From NCBI GenBank assembly GCA_026391835.1, contig JAPLDF010000076.1:1-64000 (forward strand): DNA of 64,000 nucleotides, read 5' to 3'. The stretch is from Bacteroidota bacterium. Its GTDB lineage: Bacteria > Bacteroidota > Bacteroidia > Bacteroidales > FEN-979. Both the position numbers and the translations under genes were made by a program. This document shows positions 4,178 to 4,742 of the stretch, piece by piece (the stretch's first letter is position 1; each line of letters starts with the position of its first letter). The notes under the pieces were generated by a model. That model ran no database searches and had not been told where the DNA came from. It saw only the letters and a list, made by a program, of their open reading frames with translations.

Positions 4178-4216
4178 AGGGTTGGTTTTTAATTCTTAAT
4201 TGATAAATTGCAGATA

Positions 4217-4259
4217 CAAATGTATTTCCAGCCGGACCGCGAGAAAAGAGTATATCTAC
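4217..4259 (-). promoter_or_regulatory. Promoter with palindromic operator upstream of the FG-GAP/ASPIC gene
   Basis: On the minus strand the near-palindrome GTAGATATAC (4250-4259) overlaps CTCTTT (4245-4250). A 20 bp spacer and TACATTTG (4217-4224) follow, the last matching the Bacteroidota -7 box TAnnTTTG. The same arrangement recurs at 4685-4727. The start codon is 40 bp downstream. Confidence 0.6.
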
Positions 4260-4265
4260 CTGTTT

Positions 4266-4667
4266 TTAGTTTTCAGAGATAAATTTTGCCCGTGGATTAA
4301 ATTCCCCGGGAAATAGTTCGTTCAACAAATCGTCAAGCGAATCACCTACCGATGGTTTGAAGATGAAGGCACTGGCGCCTGCCAGTTTTCCGTCAACCTG
4401 GTAGCCAGGTTCGGAGAACATCGACATGAGGACGATCAGCATACCCGGAAAGAGCTGGTGAAGTTCCGAGGTCAGGGCAAAACAGTTCATCTTCTGAAGG
4501 TGAACATCGATGAAGACTATATCCGGACAGGTAGCGGAAACAGCTTGCACCAGGTCGGAATGGCTCGATGTCACACCCGCAATCCGGATACCCGTGATCG
4601 CTTCGAGCATCATCCGCAGTCCGTTTCTGAAGGCTTTGTGGTCGTCGATGAGGAATACGCTTTTCAC
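4266..4667 (-). CDS. Stand-alone response regulator receiver protein
   Basis: A 133-residue protein made of a single CheY-like receiver domain with no output domain. It shows the acidic pair in LIDDHKAF, the likely phospho-acceptor Asp54 in IVFIDVHLQ, and the lysine in FIFKPSVG. The start is GTG; the nearby upstream ATG is followed at once by a stop in its own frame. The gene lies downstream of a LuxR-type regulator and its kinase but has its own promoter (4685-4727). It may act as a phosphate sink or a partner-binding regulator for that kinase; this is inference. The short tail after the domain carries no recognisable DNA-binding motif. Confidence 0.85.
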   Translation of the reverse strand: MKSVFLIDDHKAFRNGLRMMLEAITGIRIAGVTSSHSDLVQAVSATCPDIVFIDVHLQKMNCFALTSELHQLFPGMLIVLMSMFSEPGYQVDGKLAGASAFIFKPSVGDSLDDLLNELFPGEFNPRAKFISEN

Positions 4668-4684
4668 TGCATGGTTATTTGCAG

Positions 4685-4727
4685 CAAATGTATCCCGGGC
4701 CGGGGCATTGGGAAAGAGTAGATCTAC
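4685..4727 (-). promoter_or_regulatory. Promoter with perfect palindromic operator upstream of the receiver gene
   Basis: On the minus strand the perfect palindrome GTAGATCTAC (4718-4727) overlaps CTCTTT (4713-4718). A 20 bp spacer leads to TACATTTG (4685-4692), a Bacteroidota -7 box. The GTG start is 18 bp further on. The layout matches 4217-4259 base for base in spacing. Confidence 0.65.
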
Positions 4728-4742
4728 GTGTTTTATAAAAGG

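Follow-up and report, generated by a model that had tools for sequence, protein, structure and literature searches.

LuxR-type two-component regulators are numerous in Bacteroidota, and to our knowledge the DNA site has been established for few of them. By the build of its kinase, the nearest described counterpart of the locus studied here is FimS-FimR of Porphyromonas gingivalis, likewise a Bacteroidales two-component system with a TPR sensor region in the kinase. FimR activates surface-protein genes, as the regulator considered here is proposed to activate a secreted-protein gene; the accessible portion of the FimS-FimR report describes no stand-alone receiver, FG-GAP/ASPIC partner or operator of the form found here (PMC5706477). 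Feedback through a single-domain response regulator is described for the CckA-ChpT-CtrA system of Rhodobacter sphaeroides, in which the regulator activates Osp and Osp inhibits the kinase (PMC9430884). According to promoter studies, the Bacteroidetes housekeeping sigma-A recognizes TAnnTTTG at -7 and TTTG near -33 (PMC7366714), the -7 box occupies -12 to -5 (PMC9723704; position also PMC7366714), and the -33 box is not identifiable in Flavobacterium johnsoniae (PMC7366714).

The window analysed, a 64-kb stretch of DNA from the genome of an uncultured member of the Bacteroidales, contains on the minus strand a histidine kinase gene followed by genes for a LuxR-type regulator, a receiver and an FG-GAP/ASPIC protein, as annotated with Pfam (Table). 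The kinase and regulator genes overlap by 4 bp; the kinase carries PF07730 and PF02518, as a HisKA_3-type partner should, and is taken as cognate by gene order only. A receiver (PF00072, 2.6e-25) and a GerE helix-turn-helix (PF00196, 3.4e-17) place the regulator in the NarL/FixJ type. The receiver protein has no output domain and thus belongs to the single-domain response regulators, and the FG-GAP/ASPIC protein ends in a Por secretion sorting domain (PF18962, residues 777-850) typical of type IX cargo. In the window and in relatives (L039, L038), GTG or TTG serves as the start codon of the receiver gene, and its predicted leader is very short in all of them.

Table. Features of the locus, with window coordinates
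Feature	Coordinates	Strand	Remarks
Operator 1: CACGTAGATCTACTCTT, dyad CASGTA-N4-TACnCT	4714..4730	-	A-run ahead at 4731-4734
Position of -33 box, promoter 1	4712..4715	-	degenerate, TTTC for TTTG; from sequence; consensus PMC7366714
-7 box TACATTTG, promoter 1	4685..4692	-	transcription start predicted near 4680
Operator 2: CAGGTAGATATACTCTT	4246..4262	-	AAAAA ahead
Position of -33 box, promoter 2	4244..4247	-	degenerate (TTTT), 19 bp; from sequence
-7 box TACATTTG, promoter 2	4217..4224	-	transcription start predicted near 4212
TPR-HisKA_3-HATPase_c histidine kinase, 670 aa	5393..7405	-	Pfam domains
NarL/FixJ-type (LuxR HTH) response regulator, 217 aa	4743..5396	-	helix RTVEGHR; proposed activator
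Stand-alone receiver protein, 133 aa	4266..4667	-	GTG start; PF00072 as sole domain
Secreted FG-GAP/ASPIC protein, 852 aa	1619..4177	-	PKD-like domain, Por (type IX) sorting tail

The original prediction described a duplicated palindromic operator at two consecutive promoters within 4217-4727, and this span is exact. The palindromes GTAGATCTAC (from 4727) and GTAGATATAC (from 4259) lie on the minus strand; each shares one C with CTCTTT, and exactly 20 bp separate this element from TACATTTG, just as described. There are indeed two copies, but the second is imperfect, and the AAACA placed directly ahead of the palindrome is present but separated from it by one base (C or G). The alignments show that the conserved element is the dyad CASGTA-N4-TACnCT plus an A-run and not the decamer alone. 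Both promoters have a common build, with AAAA, CAC/GGTAGATC/ATACTCTT, 21 bases and TACATTTG; AAAA-CASGTA-N4-TACnCTT stands exactly 21 bases ahead of TACATTTG at 4685-4730 (receiver gene) and at 4217-4262 (FG-GAP/ASPIC gene). The two neighbouring genes have the same 17-base site at equal distance to their start signals.

TACATTTG is the Bacteroidetes sigma-A -7 box; both copies fit TAnnTTTG. TTTG is absent at about -33, where TTTC and TTTT stand instead, in promoter 1 at 19 bp from the -7 box and overlapping the operator end; this does not exclude sigma-A because the -33 box is unidentifiable in F. johnsoniae as well. With TACATTTG as the -7 box, the arrangement is a promoter plus an operator rather than two unexplained words, and the dyad centre, 30 bp upstream of the first -7 box base at both promoters, would fall near -42.5. 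The predicted transcription starts would lie 13 nt ahead of the receiver GTG and 35 nt ahead of the FG-GAP ATG. Both promoters, and nearly all sites found elsewhere, have the geometry of class II activation (centre near -41.5/-42.5, fixed phase).

We propose, with a probability of roughly 0.78, that the two sites are operators of the adjacent NarL/FixJ-type regulator, which, given a dyad centre at about -42.5, would act as a class II activator of the receiver and secreted-protein promoters. The TPR histidine kinase would phosphorylate the regulator, on which binding would depend. A regulator dimer would then occupy the dyad of about 20 bp, its right half-site taking the place of the degenerate -33 element at both promoters, and would contact or recruit sigma-A RNA polymerase from about -42.5. 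The first promoter would yield the stand-alone receiver, most likely feeding back on the kinase or competing for phosphoryl groups, and the second the type IX-exported FG-GAP/ASPIC protein. The part of this scheme that leads from the kinase through regulator and dyad to the polymerase is the half that comparison supports well; damping by the receiver is a tentative proposal by analogy, somewhat doubtful as it stands. Repression could be imagined as well, with the dyad over the -33 region blocking polymerase until a signal arrives, and the right half-site does overlap the -33 position. Repressor sites usually tolerate variable spacing, however, whereas this dyad keeps its place at about -42.5, 21 nt from the -7 box, phylum-wide, as a class II activator would; the degeneracy of the -33 boxes also speaks against repression, which we consider unlikely.

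Within the window the composite CASGTANNNNTACNCTW-N21-TANNTTTG occurs twice, compared with none in 100 shuffles, and the 5.35-Mb genome has the same two strict sites and none for the reversed-pattern control. The relaxed form GTANNNNTACNCTW-N20..22-TANNTTTG, used to look for a wider regulon in this genome, again found only these two sites. The enrichment at other promoters that the original prediction called for was therefore seen across the phylum but not in this genome, where the strict motif marks these two promoters only, leaving no regulon within the genome for a test. When a looser pattern was run on 43 genomes of the family, this genome and G016 had two sites each, G033 had three, and G026 and G038 had one each; the control gave nine, so single sites at this stringency are no better than chance, and it is the pairs that stand out. 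The short motif with one mismatch is uninformative because its matches were fewer than those of the control.

The two-promoter module was compared between the window and four other genomes from at least two families, giving ten promoters. Orthologues of the regulator have 86% identity in G016 (same genus, uncultured Bacteroidales AlinenLipids_bin-7146), 76% in G033 (another genus), 61% in G047 (another family) and 58% in Bacteroidales CSSed10_80. In all four relatives a receiver gene comes after the regulator, with a second promoter behind it, both operators have the same 46-bp register, and the two promoters are 461-482 bp apart. Strict sites number exactly two each in G000, G016, G033, G047 and CSSed10_80, at these loci only, with zero for the reversed control. 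Averaged over the ten promoters, identity reaches 81% in the operator and 83% in the -7 box, compared with 32% in the spacer and about 30% in the flanks; part of the operator value is built in, because eight of the ten promoters matched a pattern itself derived from them, while the G016 and G033 pairs were found before the pattern was loosened. The recognition helix RTVEGHR is invariant across the five regulators. Module alignments had no operator ahead of the kinase gene and hence no sign of autoregulation, so that autoregulation through such a site was rejected.

These comparisons bear on a further possibility, that the pair arose when an intergenic segment was recently duplicated and has no function of its own. 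In this genome the two segments do share 'CTGCAA..TA' downstream and CCGGC in the spacer. Spacer and flanks are nevertheless mostly unalike, both between the promoters and between genomes, while the operator and -7 box are kept in two families or more; the conservation pattern over ten promoters largely refutes a recent duplication, which we regard as very improbable.

The genes served by the operators change faster than the operators themselves. Identity to the window's receiver falls to 73, 49, 25 and 22%, with the phospho-Asp and Lys retained in all five modules. A receiver-protein search of 295 genomes found close relatives only in G033 and G047, the remaining matches being mostly receiver domains of ordinary regulators. 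An FG-GAP/ASPIC cargo is present in four of the five modules; in G033 (C55; L198:326-3349) promoter 2 stands ahead of a different protein of 1008 aa without a Pfam match, and the kinase-regulator-receiver module and operator are retained. From the divergence of the receiver and this exchange of cargo, it follows that conservation is stronger in the operator than in the genes for receiver and cargo behind it. One module receiver (L149:738-1112) has lost an acidic-pocket residue (AD for DD), and its score falls slightly short of the Pfam cut-off. It may be a pseudo-receiver, and such a protein would suit a binding or inhibitory role rather than that of a phosphate sink.

Scanning a collection of 84,980 genomes with CASGTANNNNTACNCTW-N21-TANNTTTG returned at least 119 stretches, nearly all from Bacteroidota among the matches listed, which include Flavobacterium, Chitinophaga, Arcicella, Mucilaginibacter, Saprospiraceae and others. 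Because the -7 box in the pattern favours Bacteroidota, this taxonomic bias says little on its own. More telling is the conservation of positions left free by the pattern, with AAA immediately ahead of the site (at -4 to -2) at 83-89% and the inner TTT of the dyad at 71-74% among the matches listed. When the operator was searched without the -7 box in 20 motif-bearing genomes, 32 sites were found against one in the control. Ten of them were new to this search, and seven of these (L239, L241, L244, L250, L253, L255 and L258; boxes read by eye) show a -7 box that departs from consensus at one base, spaced exactly 21 nt away; another (L248) has a perfect box at 22 nt. The recurrence of -7 boxes at the same spacing indicates that the operator is phase-locked to the core promoter. 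Among 396 unselected Bacteroidota genomes, a site with two extra flanking bases (AW) was present in seven, with eight sites in all at a spacing of 20 or 21 and none for the reversed pattern. The phylum-wide occurrence is real but patchy. Chance matches at ordinary sigma-A promoters might have been expected from a -7 box this common in the phylum, but the shuffles, the reversed-pattern control in unselected genomes and the conservation over ten promoters refute this explanation, and its probability is negligible.

At several Flavobacterium loci (L116, L118, L155, L161, L173, L183, L192, L200, L204, L205 and L226) a second operator copy (GTAAAAATACCTG ... CAGGTATTTTTAC) faces the opposite way; it is located about 24 bp further upstream, between the genes and towards a LuxR-type regulator gene. 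The transcript at the same loci seems to begin with a short ORF (MNTNSSNLSLIN... or similar) of less than 60 aa. In genome G208, from another family, the core GTAGATATAC operator precedes the gene of an exported protein, and a separate contig carries a TVEGHK regulator (L144 / L084); this regulator is a sister of the motif-linked regulator L201.

A common regulator, most likely the LuxR-type protein encoded just upstream, had been suggested for the two promoters, and the evidence supports this reading best: in five genomes the operator pair accompanies the orthologous regulator, and the LuxR-type regulators that lie near the same operator elsewhere in Bacteroidota share a particular recognition helix. 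Such a regulator lies within 8 kb of 27 of 124 sites (about one fifth) among the matches listed, an approximately 7-fold excess over the 0.032 expected when 424 GerE proteins are spread over about 107 Mb, as counted in 20 of the genomes. As a single Flavobacterium orthologue group supplies 11 of the 27, independent cases are fewer, about a dozen; a rough binomial value for twelve is 1e-4. On the tree the motif-linked regulators occupy three places, in a clustering that is partly taxonomic because they and the comparison set come from different taxa. All 25 motif-linked regulators match [TS][VI][ED]G[HI][RK] in the recognition helix, as TV[E/D]GH[R/K] or a close variant. The same helix occurs in 10-11 of the 50 most similar regulators of the order, with no known site nearby, and in one of about 31 other GerE proteins from motif-bearing genomes and close relatives, a control drawn from top-scoring Pfam matches and not at random.

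The sites could instead serve another regulator, a LuxR-type paralogue or a member of another family, with the neighbouring LuxR-type gene being incidental. The source genome encodes 17 GerE proteins, and adjacency alone does not fix the regulator, because about four fifths of the phylum-wide sites have no LuxR-type regulator within a few kb. Against this stand the site pair right behind an orthologous regulator in each of the five genomes and the sites of other lineages (L134, L145, L178, L201) that, as in the window, directly follow a LuxR-type gene with the same recognition helix. Moreover, pairs about 460-480 bp apart occur only behind this regulator type among the matches listed. A different regulator thus seems distinctly unlikely, and the adjacent NarL/FixJ-type protein is preferred.

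Genes directly behind the sites, with start choice made mechanically, encode a class 3 lipase, a patatin, a PI-PLC-X protein, a C70-type peptidase and an M4 peptidase with a Por tail. Others encode an amine oxidase, a LodA-type protein, a tail-collar protein, a DUF4280 protein, a GH38 enzyme and a phosphatidylserine decarboxylase. The targets share no single function; hydrolases, oxidases and exported proteins are prominent, and the operator-linked genes may form a regulon of hydrolases or delivered enzymes. Of the genes directly behind the operator at L113, L120, L133, L138, L141, L145, L162, L175, L222 and others, many seemingly have no signal peptide.

Conservation in distant relatives, together with recurrence across the phylum beside a single type of DNA-binding protein, makes the site look like a real genetic switch that has gone unstudied. 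A literature search by motif letters and topic, with most subscription journals outside its scope, found no description of the operator. New here are the identification of TACATTTG as a -7 box, a conserved module of two promoters whose cargo can be exchanged, and an operator that recurs across the phylum together with a matching recognition-helix signature. With a concrete operator, its constant distance to the -7 box and a helix signature, targets become predictable from sequence. In the module, a kinase-regulator pair is joined with a secreted FG-GAP/ASPIC protein and with a receiver that may be a built-in brake. We consider it fairly probable that AAAW-CASGTA-N4-TACnCTW-N21-TAnnTTTG defines a class of operators spread through the Bacteroidota and recognized by several NarL-type lineages sharing TV[E/D]GH[R/K]. 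It would then be a specificity code by which dozens of two-component systems, as yet unstudied, are tied to targets of a secreted or hydrolytic kind, and the window would hold one modular form of it, with kinase, regulator, receiver and exchangeable secreted cargo.

The window regulator has the receiver and GerE-type helix-turn-helix of the solved NarL/FixJ structures VraR, DevR/DosR, NarL and RcsB. The closest solved sequence is VraR (5hev, E 1.7e-29), from which it differs in the recognition helix (TVEGHR compared with TVKTHV) and in sigma-factor context. In class II activation of the LuxR/TraR type, the dyad is centred at about -42.5 and overlaps the -35/-33 position. The dyad found here has a similar size and centre, but LuxR/TraR proteins carry an autoinducer domain, whereas the window regulator has a phospho-receiver and would act at a Bacteroidetes sigma-A promoter with TAnnTTTG. 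The PM2 motif of Bacteroides thetaiotaomicron is, like this operator, near-palindromic and promoter-associated; PM2 has elements at -10 and -30 and forms a second promoter type beside sigma-A, unlike the operator at about -42 joined to a sigma-A -7 box (PMC7366714). The negative feedback of Osp has the logic proposed here for promoter 1, with the receiver as putative feedback protein (PMC9430884), in a system built from other families and belonging to another phylum.
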